The position numbers were made by a program, and so were the translations under genes. A stretch of 33,821 nt of DNA, taken from IMG/VR virus record IMGVR_UViG_3300025520_000011, positions 1 to 33,821 of that record. One strand, written 5' to 3'. Below the pieces are notes generated by a model. That model ran no database searches. It worked only from the letters and a program-made list of their open reading frames with translations, and was not told the DNA's origin. Positions 4,647 through 33,821 of this stretch are shown here, in pieces. Position 1 is the first letter of the stretch. Each line of letters opens with the position of its first letter. The DNA is from a virus.

Positions 4647-4666
4647 CGCCTGCGGCGAGATGTCGT
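4647..4666. repeat. Module-boundary element, copy 1 (half element)
   Basis: CGCCTGCGG-CGA-GATGTCG, differing from the other copies only at its last base. It touches the stop codon of the small tail gene on its right. The distal AGTGTG half of the other three copies is absent here. It also forms part of a short hairpin (8-bp stem, 4640-4659). It separates the tail block from the lysis-side genes. Confidence 0.6.
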
Positions 4667-20240: not shown

Positions 20241-20284
20241 AGTGTGTTCAAAACACGTCTGCGCCGCCTGCGGATAGATGTCGC
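20241..20284. repeat. Module-boundary element, copy 2
   Basis: AGTGTG (20241-20246), 18 bp, CGCCTGCGG (20265-20273), ATA, GATGTCGC (20277-20284). It touches the stop codon of the U-like gene (TCA at 20285-20287) and lies in the leader of the tail tube gene. The distal half overlaps an imperfect hairpin whose inner arms are GTGTT and AACAC. Confidence 0.7.
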
Positions 20285-24128: not shown

Positions 24129-24172
24129 AGTGTGTGCAAATCAGACGCTTCGCGCCTGCGGGCGGATGTCGC
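24129..24172. repeat. Module-boundary element, copy 3
   Basis: AGTGTG (24129-24134), 18 bp, CGCCTGCGG (24153-24161), GCG, GATGTCGC (24165-24172). It touches the stop codon of the 66-aa gene (TCA at 24173-24175) and lies in the leader of the protease gene. Confidence 0.7.
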
Positions 24173-27181: not shown

Positions 27182-28651
27182 TCAGGGGTTCCTGTAGTTG
27201 CGGTCGAACACTTGGGCCACGGGCAGCGTCGCGTCGGACGCGGCCAGTTGGTAGTTCTCAAGGCGGAAATAGTTGTAGGCCACGTTGTGGACCACGATGT
27301 CCACGGCCTGCGGGCTGGTGTAGCTGTACGCGGGGTTCACCCCTGCGGTCTTGCTCTCCAAGCCATAGAGTTCGGTGGTGGTGCCGTGTGCGTAGATGCG
27401 CACTTCCGAGCCATCGACCACGCCGGTCAGCGTCAACGTCGCAGACGCCTGCACGGTCACGGCAGACCCGGTGCTGGTCACACCCGAGGCGGTGCCACCG
27501 CCCGACACGTTCACCGTCACGGCGCTGCCGCTGGTATTGTTGATGTCGAAGGTGTTGCCGCTGAAGGTGATGCCGATGAAGTCCTTGGTGCCAGTCGTGT
27601 TGATCTGGATGGCGCGGCTGTTGCCCACGAAGTCGCAGTTCTGCACGCTGGTGCCATCGGGCCACAGCAGCGCGCCCAGCGCATCGGTCGAGCCGCGCAC
27701 GGTGTTGCCCGTGAACCCGGCCCCGGCGGTCTGAATCTGGTTGCAACCCTGGAACACGCAGCCGCTCACCGACTGGCCTGCCTTGAAGCGGGTGGCGTCA
27801 GCGTTCACCACGGTGTTGCCGTCGAACTCCAGCGTGTTGAGGTTGGCGTTGTTCAACAGCAGGTCGAACCGGCTGGCTGTGTTGGCCGACTTGATGACGC
27901 TGTTGGTCAGCCGGAACGTCGTGCTGGCCGTGCCCGCAGGCTCCAACTTGTACAGGTCGGCGTTCACCGGCTGGTTCTCGAACACCACGATCTGGTTCGT
28001 GTCGTTGAACACGGTCGTGGTCGCACCCCCGATGGTCAGGTTGGTGTTGACGAAGTACACGCCGTTCTGGCGACGCACAGCGCCATACCCCGATGCCGCA
28101 TCCACAGCGGCCACGCCAGCCCAATCAATCGGGTCCAATTCGCTGCCGCCCGTGATCGTCAGGCCGTTGCCTCGAACGAGGTAGTCGTACCAAGTGTTCG
28201 TGGCGTTACGGGGTGCGCCAGTCAGGTTGAGCGTGAAGCCGACGCGGTTGATCTGGGTCCGGTTGGGGGTGCCGGTCTGCGCGTCAAACGCCCGGTCCAT
28301 GTCCACCTGAAGCAGCGTCCAGCCGCCGTCGTAGGTGTCGATGCCTCCCAGATACCAGTAGCCGATGTTGCCAGCAGTGTCCTGTGCGAACAGGCGGATA
28401 CCACCGTTGGCCTGGGTTTGCAGGAAGCCGATGGAGGCGTAGTTCAGCCACATCCGCAGGTGCTGGCCGGTCGAGTTGAAGGTCGTCGTCGTGTACGTGC
28501 GGGTGTTCAGCCCCGCAGTACGCAAGATGCCCGACAGCGACGAGGTGCCCTGCTTGACCACCTCGGTGTCCAGCGTGCCCGCGCTCCACCCCGTCGTGCT
28601 GTCGCAGTCGGACAGAACGGTGAAGCCTGGGGTGAGCGTCGGGGTTGCCAT
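27182..28651 (-). CDS. Beta-helix virion protein with carbohydrate-binding-like N-terminus
   Basis: Encodes 489 aa; the start shares a base with the portal stop (TAATG). Residues 1-150 (VLSDCDSTTGWSAGTLDTEV ... GGWTLLQVDMDRAFD) look like a carbohydrate-binding jelly roll. Residues about 170-400 show the regular short-strand rhythm of a right-handed parallel beta-helix, with stacked N/G/V turns (GCVFQGCNQIQTAGAGFTGN, NCDFVGNSRAIQINTTG, GITFSGNTFDINN). The last ~80 residues (GSEVRIYAHGTTTELYG to DRNYRNP) form a sandwich. Such a layout belongs to phage tailspikes and appendages, but the gene lies in the head module. No catalytic acids can be assigned. Confidence 0.72.
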   Translation of the reverse strand: MATPTLTPGFTVLSDCDSTTGWSAGTLDTEVVKQGTSSLSGILRTAGLNTRTYTTTTFNSTGQHLRMWLNYASIGFLQTQANGGIRLFAQDTAGNIGYWYLGGIDTYDGGWTLLQVDMDRAFDAQTGTPNRTQINRVGFTLNLTGAPRNATNTWYDYLVRGNGLTITGGSELDPIDWAGVAAVDAASGYGAVRRQNGVYFVNTNLTIGGATTTVFNDTNQIVVFENQPVNADLYKLEPAGTASTTFRLTNSVIKSANTASRFDLLLNNANLNTLEFDGNTVVNADATRFKAGQSVSGCVFQGCNQIQTAGAGFTGNTVRGSTDALGALLWPDGTSVQNCDFVGNSRAIQINTTGTKDFIGITFSGNTFDINNTSGSAVTVNVSGGGTASGVTSTGSAVTVQASATLTLTGVVDGSEVRIYAHGTTTELYGLESKTAGVNPAYSYTSPQAVDIVVHNVAYNYFRLENYQLAASDATLPVAQVFDRNYRNP

Positions 28652-30534
28652 TACTCGGAGTCCTTCTCAACCTGAGTGGCCTTGACCAGATTGCCGTACT
28701 GGTCACGTTCGATGGTGGTTTCGGTCTTGCGGGCGGGGAGTTCCAGCTTCACCGCTGCTGGGGCCACGTTGAACACGGGCTGCACCTCGGCGGGCACCAC
28801 TTTGTTCTCGATCACGGGGGCGGCCACGTTCACGGTGGGCCCTTCCACGCTGACCTCGGGGGCGGCCACGTTCACCACGGGCGTCTCCACCTTGTTTTCC
28901 ACCAGGGTGGGCGGGATGTGGTTGTTGATGACCAACTGCTGCGGCTCGGACTTCTGCCCCATCAGCGCCGCCTGGATGGCGTTCATCTGCTGGGCCAGTG
29001 CCGCGAACTGCTTGAGCAGTTCAGCGTTCGGCGGCGCGGCGTACTCCTCGTCGTCGATGCCGTCGGTGTCGCCCTGCTCGGGCGGCTCGACCGGCTCACC
29101 GTTGGCGTCGAGTTGGCCGGTGGGGTCTGCGTACAGGCCCATCGACTTCTCGCGCTCCAGATCGGCAGCGCGCTCGGCGTCCACCGTGTCGGGGTCGTCG
29201 CCGCGTTCGGCGATGACGCTGGAGCGGCTGCGGAATCCGCTTTCGACTTCCAGGGCCTTGCCCTGCGGGTCTTGCACCGGGTGGATGTACGCCCAGCCGT
29301 GCGGTGCCCACTCGACCATCGCCACGTCATTGGCTTCGGCCATCGACACCAAGCCCGCGAGCACCGCCGCGTCCGTCCACCACTGGCGAACGGGCTGGCA
29401 GAACATCGGGATCACCGTGTGCCACTGGCGCTGTTCGGCAAATCGACGGAACTCGTTGATGACGACGCGAAGGGTCCGGTCAGAAACCTCCTTGATGTCA
29501 CCACTGAAAAGCTCGTAGGGGATGCCGGTTGCAGCACTGGTGCCCAGATGCTGCGTCCGCATGTAGTCACTGTATGTCGTCCCAGCCTCTGGAGGGTTGG
29601 AGAACTTGACATCTTGACCATATTCCAACTCCTGCATGATGCCCGGTTGCAGACCGGCCAGCGGCTCGCCGCCCGACATCTCGATGGGCAGGTTGGTCAG
29701 GGGGTCGATGTCCACATCGCCGCCCAGGCCCCGGGTGATGAACACCGCAAACAGGTTCGCCAGTTTCTGGCGTTCCAGCACGGCGTCGTCGTAGTCGTTG
29801 ATCGAGCGCAGACGGGCCAGCACCGACGCCAGCGCCGAGACGCCGCGCAACTGCCCTGGGCGCTTGACCTCGTAGATGTGCTTCACGTCGCTGGCGGGGA
29901 TGCGCAGCAGGTTCTGCATACCGGCCAGCGTGCCCTCGCCCGGGTGCTCCCGGTGCATCCAGTAGGCCACGCGCTGGCCGCGCCGGTCCAACTCGATGCC
30001 CTGGCGAATCTTGTTGCCGATGGGCAGACCCGGCCATGTGTCGGCGTCGAACACGGGCACGAACTCGGCCTCTATCAGTTGCACCTGCATCGGCACTTCC
30101 ATGCCGCTGTCCAGGCGTCGGGCGCGCTTGCGCACGAACACCTCGCCGCTGTCCAGCCACGCCCGCACCACCAGGGCTTGCAGGCCGTAGAAGTTCAGCA
30201 CGCCGTCGGCATCGGCCACTTGGACCCAGCGGTCCCACAGGTCGATGAGTTCCTGCTTGCGCGGGCCCGAGGGCAGCCGTTTGAGGCGGGGCGTGATGCC
30301 CACGCCGATCAGGTTGGTGACCCACTTCTGCGTGGCCGACTCACCCGACCAGTCGTTGCGCACCACGTCGCGGGCGCGGTTGCGGATGTTCTGAAGGCCC
30401 GTGATGGCTTTGTTCGGGCCGCTCGACGGGGGCATCCAGCCCTTCATGCGACGGCCAGTCCCGGCGGCGTCGTACTTGTTGCTCACCTCAAGCCGCTTCT
30501 GCGCGGCTGGGTTGGGTTTGCGCGGTCGGCCCAT
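28651..30534 (-). CDS. Portal protein, lambda family, with repeat-bearing C-terminus
   Basis: Encodes 627 aa; its ATG shares a base with the upstream stop (TGATG). The first ~500 residues show the lambda gpB family: RNRARDVVRNDWSGESATQK, WVTNLIGVGITPRLK, GLQALVVRAWLDSGEVFVRK, GVSALASVLARLRSINDYDD. Twelve copies form the channel at one capsid vertex through which DNA enters. The last ~110 residues are an extension: after a helix (ELLKQFAALAQQMNAIQAAL) come beta repeats of the form VVNVAAP/TVNVAAP and an end ETTIERDQYGNLVKATQVEK. Lambda gpB has 533 aa, so the extension accounts for the extra length. Confidence 0.92.
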   Translation of the reverse strand: MGRPRKPNPAAQKRLEVSNKYDAAGTGRRMKGWMPPSSGPNKAITGLQNIRNRARDVVRNDWSGESATQKWVTNLIGVGITPRLKRLPSGPRKQELIDLWDRWVQVADADGVLNFYGLQALVVRAWLDSGEVFVRKRARRLDSGMEVPMQVQLIEAEFVPVFDADTWPGLPIGNKIRQGIELDRRGQRVAYWMHREHPGEGTLAGMQNLLRIPASDVKHIYEVKRPGQLRGVSALASVLARLRSINDYDDAVLERQKLANLFAVFITRGLGGDVDIDPLTNLPIEMSGGEPLAGLQPGIMQELEYGQDVKFSNPPEAGTTYSDYMRTQHLGTSAATGIPYELFSGDIKEVSDRTLRVVINEFRRFAEQRQWHTVIPMFCQPVRQWWTDAAVLAGLVSMAEANDVAMVEWAPHGWAYIHPVQDPQGKALEVESGFRSRSSVIAERGDDPDTVDAERAADLEREKSMGLYADPTGQLDANGEPVEPPEQGDTDGIDDEEYAAPPNAELLKQFAALAQQMNAIQAALMGQKSEPQQLVINNHIPPTLVENKVETPVVNVAAPEVSVEGPTVNVAAPVIENKVVPAEVQPVFNVAPAAVKLELPARKTETTIERDQYGNLVKATQVEKDSE

Positions 30535-30755
30535 CAGTACCCCCGGCCTTGGTAATAGGCGTATGTGCGCTTGGTGCGCCGCTTGCCCGCAGCCGCAGCG
30601 GCTTCGTCTTGCATCTGCTGCTTGAGGTCATTGCGTGCTTTGATGAGGTCGTCCACCGACCGATACGTCACGCTCTGGCCGTTCAGCACCACGACGCGCT
30701 CGCCCGACGCGATGGCCGCGTTCAGCGTGTCGATGTCTGCTTGCGAAACCGCCAT
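30534..30755 (-). CDS. gpW-like head-tail joining protein
   Basis: Encodes 73 aa from the ATG at 30755; a TTG two codons earlier is possible. It reads SQADIDTLNAAIASGERVVV, LNGQSVTYRSVDDLIKARND, i.e. helix, hairpin with a basic and glycine turn, second helix, then a basic tail ending YYQGRGY. This helix-hairpin-helix plan and the place between large terminase and portal are those of lambda W (68 aa), which closes the portal after packaging. The Shine-Dalgarno is weak (GGGG). Copy 4 of the boundary element lies in its leader. Confidence 0.85.
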   Translation of the reverse strand: MAVSQADIDTLNAAIASGERVVVLNGQSVTYRSVDDLIKARNDLKQQMQDEAAAAAGKRRTKRTYAYYQGRGY

Positions 30756-30785: not shown

Positions 30786-30829
30786 AGTGTGGGTTTTTCG
30801 GGGTTTTTTCGCCTGCGGAGAGATGTCGC
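30786..30829. repeat. Module-boundary element, copy 4
   Basis: AGTGTG (30786-30791), 18 bp, CGCCTGCGG (30810-30818), AGA, GATGTCGC (30822-30829). It lies in the gap between the gpW-like gene (leftward) and the antisense ribbon-helix-helix gene (rightward). Unlike copies 1-3 it does not touch a stop codon. The 18-bp spacer and the bases before it hold a direct repeat GGGTTTTTCG/GGGTTTTTTCG. Confidence 0.7.
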
Positions 30830-30850: not shown

Positions 30851-30864
30851 TGTGTATGATTCAA
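30851..30864 (+). repeat. 14-bp start-region repeat, copy at antisense gene
   Basis: TGTGTATGATTCAA, containing the first ATG of the antisense gene. The identical 14 bp, in the same position relative to the start codon, occurs at 33590-33603 (minus strand) at the small terminase gene. Confidence 0.6.
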
Positions 30865-31068
30865 CACATGAACCAACCCCGCCGTGGCGGGCCTCGCCGC
30901 AACGCGGGCCGCAAAACCGAACTCAATGGACAGCCCACCAAGCGCGTCCAGTTGACCCTGGACGAGCGCACGGTGGAGTTGCTGAAGGTGCTGGGCGACG
31001 GCAACATGAGCCGTGGGGCCCGTGTCGCCGCCGATGTGGCCTACGACCGCTACCAGCGGTCAGCCTAA
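30856..31068 (+). CDS. Ribbon-helix-helix-like protein, antisense in the late operon
   Basis: Encodes 70 aa (or 66 aa from the ATG at 30868). It is the only plus-strand gene right of int, placed between large terminase and gpW. After a basic start (NQPRRGGPRRNAGRKTE) the order is strand KRVQLTL, helix DERTVELLKVLGD, turn GNMS, helix RGARVAADVAYDRYQ: the Arc/MetJ ribbon-helix-helix plan, in which dimers bind DNA by the strands. No Shine-Dalgarno is visible. The gene ends 9 bp inside the terminase gene (convergent overlap). Its start region repeats that of small terminase. A DNA-binding regulator is the natural reading, though a structural role for such a short basic protein cannot be excluded. 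Confidence 0.7.
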   Translation: MIQHMNQPRRGGPRRNAGRKTELNGQPTKRVQLTLDERTVELLKVLGDGNMSRGARVAADVAYDRYQRSA

Positions 31069-33177
31069 GTAGCTCGACCTCGCCACTCGGCGCTGGCGCA
31101 CCACCGCAGGCCGCTGCACCACGGGCGGGGGCAACGTGGCCGCCTCGGCTTTGGCCTCGCGCCGTTCTTCCCGCGTCACCAGTTCACGGTTCTCAGGCAG
31201 CGGCGCGGCCCACGCAGGGGCCTTGTCCCAGTTCTTGATCTTGTCGGCCCCCAGCTTCAGGCACCCGGCGCGCACGTAGCCCGCCAAGTCGAACGCCTCG
31301 TTGCGCTTGCGCACCTGCTCCCACTTCCCGTTCTTGCCGCGCACCTCCGAGCGGTGCAGTTCGTCCAGAAACGCCTTGTTGACCCAGCCGGGGACGTGGA
31401 TGTAGCCGGGGCCCGGGGTGGCACGCCGCAGGCCCGCGTGAACGGCGTCCTTCAGCATGTCGGTGTTGAGGATGTAGAGCGGCACGTCGCCCTTCTCCTT
31501 GCCCGAGCGGTTGCCCACCAGGGTCTGGCGGATCATCCCGGCCATCTTGACGTTCGACCCTTTGACCAGCATCACGCGGTCGTGCATCTTCGCCTGCCGC
31601 AGCGCCCGATACCACGCATACGCCTTGTCGGTCACGCCGTCTTCGCCCCCGGAGTCCACCACCGTCAGCAGCACCTGCAACTCGCGGCCCTCCAGCGGCG
31701 TCTTGTAGGTGGCCGTGACCACCTTTTTGGTGAGCGTGTGCCAGTCCTCGGCGTAGCTGGCCGGGTCGATGGGTGCGAAGTCGCTGCCCACGCCCTCGCG
31801 CTCCGACTCCTTGATCTCGAAACGGTCCACCAGCCACTGCTCAAAGTGCGGCCCGACGGCGTGGACTTGCACCACGAAGCGGGCGTTGGTGCCACCCTGC
31901 ACGTCCACGGCGGCCACCAGAAAACGCGCCGACTCGGGCACGGTGTACCGCTCCATTCGGTCGTCCTGGCGAACGTTGCCGCCGTTCTTCGCCGCCTCAG
32001 CCAGCGCCCGTGGGAGGTACGGCAGGCCCTGGTCGGTGTTGACCGTGGTCTTCAGCGTCAGTTCGCTGCCGGTCAGGGCGTACTCGCGCAGGCCCTGGAG
32101 ATGCCGCATGATGAGCGACTTCCAGTGCTGGTACGCTGCCGCCGCGCCACCCAGCCAGTAGCCCGCGATGGTGCTGGTCAGGGGCGCACCGTAGCGTTCG
32201 CCGTCGGCGGTGATCTTCTCGCCGTCCCGCAGCCAGACGCCGCGCCGGTTGAGTTCGTGCTTGTCTTTCGGCGTATGGATGGAGCCGCAGTGCGGGCACG
32301 GCACGCGGTTGTACTGGGCAGCCAACGCACCCAGGTCGGCCTCGCGCACCATCTCGATGAGTTCGTCGTCACTGGGCAGGCCGAACAGGCTCAGGCCCGG
32401 GGCCACCTCGAAATACTCGCTGCAATGCAGGCACGACCAGTACCAGCGGCGGCGGTCGCTGCGGTTGTAGATGCCCAGGATGCCACCCGTGGGTGGGGCT
32501 TCATGGGGCGTGACCGGGTGCCAGTTCGGGTCGCTCACGTCGCGGCCCGGGGACGACTCCACCATGCACATGCCCCGCGACAGGAACGTGGTCGTGCGCT
32601 TGAGGCCCAGGGTGAAGGGTGCGCCCTCCCCGTCCACGTCATCGGGCATCCGGTCGTAGTCGGTGAAGGCGACGTAGCGGTAGTCGGAGCCCGACAGGTT
32701 GGTCACGGTCGGCCACGCGATGCGCAGCCACATCCCGTGCTTGAACATCTTGTCGTGGGTGTTGTCGTGCTGGCTCGACGCCGACTTCATGGCCTTGATG
32801 GCCGGAGAGTGCCGGATCATCCGGTCGATACGGGTCTTGCTGTACTCCCGGGCCTTCTCCTGCGTCATCTGGATCACGGCCATGTCGCCTGGGTCGTTCA
32901 CCACGCAGTGGGCGATCCAGGCGTCCAGCAGGCCCATCGTCTTACCAGTACGCGCTGGGCCGACGAAACACACCGCTTCGTGGCCCCGCGAGGCCAGCAT
33001 GTTCATCGGCTCCACCATGTACGGGGTCTCGTCGGCGCTCCAGGGCCCGACATAGCCCCCGGGCTGGTTGATGACCAGCGTCTCGGCAGCGCCTTCGGCC
33101 ACCGACACCCGTTTGGGCGGGCGCAGCGCGTCGAAACCGCTGCAAATGTCTAGTAGCGCCTTGGCGGGTTCACTCAT
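31060..33177 (-). CDS. Large terminase subunit, lambda GpA family
   Basis: Encodes 705 aa from the ATG at 33177 (GAGG upstream); a TTG at 33192 is in frame. Walker A is GPARTGKT (residues 73-80). The expected Walker B is YVAFTDYDRMPDD (about 168-180), with TDYD where many GpA proteins have DEVD. A zinc-type pair of cysteines appears twice (SCLHCSE and PCPHCGS). The nuclease part starts near AAVDVQGG (about 410) and includes LTVVDSGGED. It cuts concatemeric DNA and drives packaging through the portal. The start overlaps the small terminase stop by 8 bp. The C-terminus is basic (RREAKAEAATLPPP...). Confidence 0.92.
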   Translation of the reverse strand: MSEPAKALLDICSGFDALRPPKRVSVAEGAAETLVINQPGGYVGPWSADETPYMVEPMNMLASRGHEAVCFVGPARTGKTMGLLDAWIAHCVVNDPGDMAVIQMTQEKAREYSKTRIDRMIRHSPAIKAMKSASSQHDNTHDKMFKHGMWLRIAWPTVTNLSGSDYRYVAFTDYDRMPDDVDGEGAPFTLGLKRTTTFLSRGMCMVESSPGRDVSDPNWHPVTPHEAPPTGGILGIYNRSDRRRWYWSCLHCSEYFEVAPGLSLFGLPSDDELIEMVREADLGALAAQYNRVPCPHCGSIHTPKDKHELNRRGVWLRDGEKITADGERYGAPLTSTIAGYWLGGAAAAYQHWKSLIMRHLQGLREYALTGSELTLKTTVNTDQGLPYLPRALAEAAKNGGNVRQDDRMERYTVPESARFLVAAVDVQGGTNARFVVQVHAVGPHFEQWLVDRFEIKESEREGVGSDFAPIDPASYAEDWHTLTKKVVTATYKTPLEGRELQVLLTVVDSGGEDGVTDKAYAWYRALRQAKMHDRVMLVKGSNVKMAGMIRQTLVGNRSGKEKGDVPLYILNTDMLKDAVHAGLRRATPGPGYIHVPGWVNKAFLDELHRSEVRGKNGKWEQVRKRNEAFDLAGYVRAGCLKLGADKIKNWDKAPAWAAPLPENRELVTREERREAKAEAATLPPPVVQRPAVVRQRRVARSSYLG

Positions 33178-33598
33178 CTTCGGCGGCCTCAACGACGCCT
33201 TCCATCGGGCGTTGTTCCTCGGTGATGGCTTCCAACTGGTTCGCCACCTCGTCCAGAGCCGCGTCGATCAGCGCCCCCACCTCGGCGGCCACCTCGGGCG
33301 CGACACCCAGCTTGCGCTCTAGGTTGTCTGGCACCGAGCGCAGGGTCTGGGCCAGCGCGGACAGCGCCGTGGCCGATGCCTGACGCACCTGGGCGCGGTC
33401 CACGTACTGGCCGCGTCTCACCGCCAACTCCAACTCGTTGAGGTCGGCCTTCGCCTTCTCGTTCCGGGCCTTCTCGCGGTCGAGGTCGATGCGTTCCTGC
33501 GGCGGAACGTAGCCAGCGGGCTTCGCACCTGCCCCTGGGCGGTATCCACCGTGGCCGTTGTTGCGCTTTGGCGTGGTCGTGCTCATGGTTTGAATCAT
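33170..33598 (-). CDS. Small terminase subunit / DNA-recognition protein
   Basis: Encodes 142 aa from the ATG at 33598; ATGs at 33604 and 33586 are in frame, and no clear ribosome site decides between them. I favour 33598 because the same context starts the antisense gene at 30856. The N-terminus has the GGYRPGAGAKPAG motif common in small terminases, followed by a long charged helix (RIDLDREKARNEKAKADLNE, LELAVRRGQYVDRAQVRQAS) and an acidic end. This matches the Nu1-type/terminase small subunit that binds cos and positions the large subunit. It is the first gene of the late operon. No typical N-terminal HTH is obvious, so the family call rests on position and the helical pattern. Confidence 0.75.
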   Translation of the reverse strand: MIQTMSTTTPKRNNGHGGYRPGAGAKPAGYVPPQERIDLDREKARNEKAKADLNELELAVRRGQYVDRAQVRQASATALSALAQTLRSVPDNLERKLGVAPEVAAEVGALIDAALDEVANQLEAITEEQRPMEGVVEAAEDE

Positions 33599-33603
33599 AC
33601 ACA
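33590..33603 (-). repeat. 14-bp start-region repeat, copy at small terminase
   Basis: On the minus strand TGTGTATGATTCAA, the exact 14-mer found at 30851-30864, again enclosing an ATG and followed after 3 nt by ATGA. Could be a shared operator or a remnant of common origin. Confidence 0.6.
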
Positions 33604-33622: not shown

Positions 33623-33643
33623 GTTATAGCTTCTCGCTATAAC
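33623..33643. promoter_or_regulatory. Inverted repeat, operator candidate upstream of late operon
   Basis: GTTATAGC, 5 nt, GCTATAAC: a perfect 8-bp inverted repeat in an otherwise AT-richer stretch 25 bp upstream of the small terminase start. The size fits a dimeric regulator site. It has no T-run, so it is not a terminator. A weak TTGATC (minus strand) lies just upstream; no convincing -10 pairs with it. Confidence 0.5.
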
Positions 33644-33731: not shown

Positions 33732-33743
33732 TCGGTTTCGCGC

Positions 33744-33821
33744 GCTGGGTGCTGGGTGCTGGGTGCTGGGTGCTGGGTGCTGGGTGCTGGGTGCTGGGTG
33801 CTGGGTGCTGGGTGCTGGGTG
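33744..33821. repeat. (GCTGGGT)n tandem repeat at window edge
   Basis: Eleven perfect head-to-tail copies of GCTGGGT run into the right edge. The true number is unknown because the sequence stops inside the array. Perfect short repeats ending a sequence can be an assembly artefact. Confidence 0.85.

Follow-up and report, generated by a model that had tools for sequence, protein, structure and literature searches.

A conserved ribbon-helix-helix family gene antisense to the large terminase gene of a phage late operon, with a predicted promoter core also found before the small terminase gene

The window analysed here is the whole of an IMG/VR virus record, 33,821 nts in length. The phage has an integrase, and the remaining large ORFs between 2.4 and 33.6 kb all run leftward, as an earlier note on this DNA had stated. 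Against them, between the genes for the large terminase (terL) and a gpW-like protein, lies a rightward gene for a small protein of ribbon-helix-helix (RHH) type. Its 3′ end, at 31068, is 9 bp inside terL, which reads leftward to a stop at 31060, and ~110 bp separate it from gpW; the ORF positions confirm both the placement and the 9-bp overlap that had been proposed. The features to which the text refers are the following (relatives are denoted by L numbers).

28651 to 30534, minus strand: portal protein (PF05136, E=3.5e-105)
30534 to 30755, minus strand: gpW-like head-tail adaptor, reading away from the RHH gene (phrog_2545, E=9e-18)
30813 to 30829, minus strand: GCGACATnnnnCCGCAG, an element conserved in the gap that separates gpW from the RHH promoter
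30851 to 30864, plus strand: promoter core TGTGTATGATTCAA of the RHH gene, an exact match, with −10 TATGAT at 30855-30860, 7 nt before ATG 30868
30868 to 31068, plus strand: RHH gene, 66 aa (ORF, family alignment A9, RHH profile match, dN/dS)
31060 to 33177, minus strand: terL, GpA-type large terminase (PF05876, E=4e-73; PF20454; phrog_15)
33170 to 33586, minus strand: terS, small terminase, 138 aa (phrog_57, E=1.4e-15)
33590 to 33603, minus strand: the promoter core again, an exact match ahead of terS, with −10 TATGAT at 33594-33599, 7 nt before ATG 33586
33623 to 33643, unstranded: GTTATAGC-N5-GCTATAAC, a perfect inverted repeat on the upstream side of the terS promoter and close to it

The terS start is placed at ATG 33586 by promoter geometry and by conservation in L117/L119. 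At the right end of the window, 33741-33821 is a tandem CACCCAG repeat, where the contig probably ends at a repeat.

The RHH gene had been described as encoding 70 aa. The ORF is there, but the start which that length requires, ATG 30859, lies within or overlapping the −10 hexamer, and the left end then given to the gene, 30851, is where the promoter core begins. Because ATG 30859 overlaps the TATGAT box, ATG 30868, giving 66 aa, is the likelier start. The gene is real: homologues in the same slot and orientation, a dN/dS of ~0.2 and a match of the family profile to an RHH structure put it well beyond a chance ORF, a candidate ruled out by the conservation and the dN/dS.

Searches of Pfam, NCBIfam, PHROGs and PDB with the single protein sequence gave nothing usable, and the family became visible only with an alignment, through stepwise searches. 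The resulting 20-member family profile (A9) matches residues 1-45 of the NikR RHH domain (1q5v) at E=9e-4, aligned over the strand and both helices, and shows the succession of strand, helix A, turn and helix B by which RHH proteins are recognised in sequence profiles. At the sequence level this match bears out the DNA-binding type assigned in the earlier note. With single sequences, Pfam RHH_1 is matched at E=0.05, in two members only. Family members have a basic N-terminal arm, GG-R-x-GAGRK or GRK/GRP, followed by a core of the form KR-v-v-LD--t----lG(D/E)GN-S-GiR-A. The strands of RHH proteins pair only in the dimer. An AlphaFold2 monomer of the window protein has helices at 33-42 and 47-65, predicted with high confidence, and its strand is not formed; Foldseek with this monomer returned no match, and the monomer is uninformative for RHH.

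No Pfam, PHROG or NCBIfam family covers these proteins, which are without a name and nearly absent from cultured phages, the homologues there being gp37 of Iodobacter phage phiPLPE (clear) and gp70 of phCDa (weak, E=0.07), with no others. Cellular genomes gave few matches, mostly to the N-terminal motif alone. Weak, sub-threshold Pfam matches (BrnA_antitoxin, E=0.13; CcdA, E=0.08) would suit an orphan RHH-type antitoxin, BrnA/CcdA-like. However, they are far below the curated cut-offs and no toxin gene lies beside the RHH gene, either in the window or, among the relatives, in the slot, and such a role is very improbable; a toxin-antitoxin pair was rejected, there being no partner gene. A separate group of 135-145 aa proteins (L197, L199, L209, L227, L236, L256, L262 and L270) has an extra N-terminal region, MTHxxRGRLTVxLGG, fused to the RHH core, and its genes have a promoter with a TTTGTGTGTATAATTCAA core and a conserved short leader peptide upstream.

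Relatives were drawn from 80 loci retrieved with a terL profile, a family match being one with E below 1e-10. Most are metagenomic contigs, and L116, an IMG/VR record identical to the window, was left out as non-independent. Every family match among the 80 loci is in the terL-gpW gap and antisense to terL, and none is sense. Conservation in related phages, on which the earlier note had made its proposal depend, is thus found: a homologue occupies the same gap in twelve other terL lineages (13 with the window), whose terL proteins are 47-84% identical to one another. These other lineages are L117/L119, L120, L126, L127 (with L129 and L163), L134, L138, L141, L142, L144, L151 and L161, together with L086, where the order is likewise portal-gpW-[RHH]-terL. 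In L057 the gene ends 17 bp inside a distant GpA-type terL, and in L009 and L010 it is antisense, with terL and a small HTH-like gene on one side of it and portal on the other. Among the relatives with an empty junction are L121-L124, L135 and Curvibacter phage PCA1.

On the terL tree, presence of the RHH gene needs 4 changes compared with 11.8 when labels are shuffled (0/500), and falls inside one clade of 34; RHH and terL distances are correlated (Mantel r=0.71; 0/5000 permutations). The dN/dS is ~0.19-0.25 where dS is usable (unsaturated), and 0.4-0.5 for more distant pairs, while L127 and L129 differ by two synonymous changes and zero non-synonymous ones. By these sequence comparisons the gene has long been resident and is under purifying selection, and it is no recent hitchhiker.

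The evidence of descent bears directly on the earlier suggestion of a moron, a lysogeny-expressed gene whose protein would act on host genes or incoming phages, the terL-gpW gap being a tolerated docking site for it. Much of what is expected of such a gene is present: it has its own predicted promoter, it forms a discrete cassette with the terL stop on one side and a conserved element on the other, it is present in some relatives and absent from others, the phage has an integrase, a sister clade has other inserts (tRNA, methylase) in the slot, and moron loci characteristically have genes that run antisense to the lytic genes of a prophage (PMC7067206). The terL tree and the Mantel correlation do not show a gene gained recently and independently of the phage backbone, however. 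The few changes, and the inheritance with terL across 47-84% identity, suit a gene of the lineage better than a hitchhiker, and the promoter core in common with terS suggests a link to the packaging genes. The cassette part of the suggestion stands and the part that implies recent mobility does not; a moron is an unlikely reading, and one that still deserves a hearing.

The terL-gpW gap is occupied in other ways too. A sister clade (L003, L125, L128, L131, L147, L152, L157, L158 and L162) has gap inserts of ~0.4-1.3 kb that are without an RHH gene; there are tRNA genes in those of L003 (Acidovorax phage ACF1; 4800-5940), L152 and L162, and the remaining ones mostly have no convincing ORF. In L133 (3316-4446) the gap holds, instead of the RHH gene, a sense-strand gene for a DNA adenine methylase-like protein of 376 aa (named by eye). 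The ACF1 large terminase (L003, 5950-9174, late strand) is ~1075 aa and has an intein-like insertion just after its Walker A motif.

Members of the RHH family also occur beyond this slot, in replication, tail or integrase regions, some of them on the sense strand, and in L024, L041 and L070, which are other phages, they are directly upstream of terS, sense-strand cases again occurring. Because of these sense-strand, terS-adjacent and replication- and tail-region members, a single universal role for the family seems unlikely.

The best −10 hexamer is 5-8 nt before the ATG of the RHH gene in 13 of 14 lineages, for which the null mean is 2.4 of 14 and none of 2000 shuffles is as high. Among the late genes of the window only terS shares this geometry. 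No −35 box is above chance, and dyads over the −10 exceed shuffles only slightly. From a −10 this close to the ATG, with no usable −35, the prediction is of activator-dependent promoters whose mRNAs are leaderless, the RHH transcript starting at its ATG. Both lambda cI and paaR2, a prophage regulator, are documented cases of leaderless translation (PMC8630535). A predicted promoter of the gene's own, facing the late genes, is in keeping with this geometry.

Transcription from it would oppose the late operon, and the earlier note had considered that this could interfere with the packaging and head genes. Were this itself the function, the antisense transcript would collide or pair with terL mRNA and lower terminase, the protein being secondary. 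In the window the orientation is convergent, the overlap with terL is 9 bp and no clear terminator follows the RHH gene; further, the prophage antisense RNA STnc6030 has a phenotype (PMC7067206). The overlap is variable, though, from 53 bp inside terL to ~500 bp away from it, hairpins lie between the gene and terL in L134, L120, L161 and L086, and the constraint is at the amino-acid level. Interference may occur, but it is not what has been conserved, and as the function of the locus it is improbable.

The promoter core itself, TGTGTATGATTCAA, has two exact copies in the window, one before the RHH gene and one before terS. Both in the window and in its nearest relative a common core of 14-27 bp precedes the two genes. 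L117 and L119 have the same RHH/terS pair, with 27- and 25-point matches compared with 7-12 in shuffled controls; as they are 98.7% identical over 4 kb, they are counted as one lineage. A scan of IMG/VR for the core followed by an ATG found two copies in three contigs only: the window, L117 and L119. Sharing was not seen in L134, L120, L142 and others, some loci having no terS promoter in the contig, and the candidate generalisation that terS and the RHH gene have a common promoter in every lineage was rejected, the arrangement being seen in two lineages only (the window and L117/L119). Nine further contigs retrieved by core DNA alone have a family member downstream in the same operon; they are related to one another and count as ~two lineages. 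The promoter of the RHH operon in L002 also has the core. In L278, L282 and L286, however, the core precedes small non-RHH genes, and because of these it is regarded as a recurrent promoter core and no exclusive RHH operator. It appears enriched with the RHH family, and that it has an operator role is put forward as a hypothesis; TGTGTATRATTCAA as an RHH-only operator was judged too strong, non-RHH phage genes also being downstream of the core. The inverted repeat upstream of the terS promoter (GTTATAGC-GAGAA-GCTATAAC) is the sole copy in the window and is a possible operator.

The core in common with terS, in the window lineage, also favours a packaging accessory, in which the RHH protein would be made together with TerS, bind phage DNA (pac/cos) and help or limit packaging initiation. 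The place beside terL kept in many lineages, the family members just upstream of terS in L024, L041 and L070, and the N-terminal arms of GG-R-x-GAG-K type in both TerS and the RHH protein are in its favour as well. Yet the arm motif is common in unrelated proteins, and the RHH gene is absent from close relatives with the same type of terminase and is therefore dispensable for packaging. Such an accessory role is decidedly unlikely.

On its other side the cassette is bounded by the GCGACATnnnnCCGCAG element, which relatives retain whether or not they have the RHH gene, a related sequence being present in the terL-gpW gap of many relatives. It recurs at two further intergenic sites in the late region of the window. 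A repeated element of the window, GCGACATnnnnCCGCAGGCG, is on the late strand at 30813-30829, 24156-24172 and 20268-20284, and with one mismatch at 4650-4666; with up to one mismatch allowed, 5 were found compared with 0.18 expected in shuffles. Two copies immediately follow a stop codon, with the next late gene 50-90 bp further on. It could be a late promoter, a processing signal or a boundary signal. From the terL stop to this element, then, the RHH cassette is a unit divergent from gpW/portal, a position in which regulators are classically found.

An autoregulated RHH regulator of the flanking packaging and head genes is the reading to which we would give an even chance. The RHH protein, presumably dimeric, would bind DNA; its mRNA, probably leaderless, would run against the late operon from a −10-only, activator-type promoter of its own. 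The protein would most likely bind its own promoter region and so regulate both itself and the divergent gpW/portal unit and, in the window lineage, it would probably also act at terS through the copied core. The outcome would be that it sets the timing or level of packaging and head gene expression. Dimerisation, DNA binding, operator sites, the sign of regulation and the timing of expression are all inferred here. The RHH profile match, the always-antisense slot, co-inheritance with terL, purifying selection, the −10/ATG geometry, the core in common with terS, and divergence from gpW across ~110 bp holding a conserved element are consistent with such a regulator. Against it, the core also stands before non-RHH genes and may be no more than a recurrent promoter, two lineages only have it in common with terS, dyads over the −10 barely exceed shuffles, and other family members are elsewhere, some of them sense. 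A regulatory role, which the earlier note had raised as a possibility, is probable. A more specific version, that a single promoter/operator, present in duplicate, lets the regulator couple its own synthesis to that of TerS, with the convergent pair bracketing terS-terL as a built-in packaging-timing switch, is advanced tentatively and is rather doubtful; if true, it would be a late-phase regulatory circuit inside the packaging module and not the immunity region.

It is usually thought that temperate phages control their late genes from outside the structural module. A regulator antisense beside terL (13 lineages), with a promoter core in common with terS (two), would put control of packaging inside the packaging genes. 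The predictions are concrete: there should be one leaderless transcript, the protein should form one RHH-DNA complex, and its target promoters should number two or three. A literature search on RHH, terminase, phage and antisense found nothing and, as far as the searches go, the type of fold is known while the family, its slot and the promoter in common with terS are undescribed. The analysis also sets boundaries for a small protein family missed by reference libraries.

Among known proteins, the N-terminal domain of NikR and the CopG/Arc RHH regulators share with the window family the strand-helix-helix core and a KRVxxTLD...N(x)S..(I/V)R pattern (relative to 1q5v 1-45). The window family differs in being without a metal domain, in its basic GG-R-x-GAGRK arm and in its location in a phage late operon. 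Gene 37 of phiPLPE encodes a family member and is also antisense inside a virion-gene cluster, but its product is 29% identical to the window protein and it lies between tail-fibre/virion genes, away from terminase. Antisense prophage morons, such as STMMW_20121 of prophage ST64B (PMC7067206), are likewise small genes with their own promoter, antisense to lytic genes and present or absent among relatives; the window gene differs in its long vertical residence with terL and in a promoter core common to terS. With lambda cI (from PRM) and paaR2 (PMC8630535) it shares a −10 placed for a start at the initiation codon, the lack of a Shine Dalgarno sequence and a regulator as the presumed product, whereas its protein would be RHH and not HTH, its start site is a predicted one, and its setting is the packaging module instead of the immunity region.
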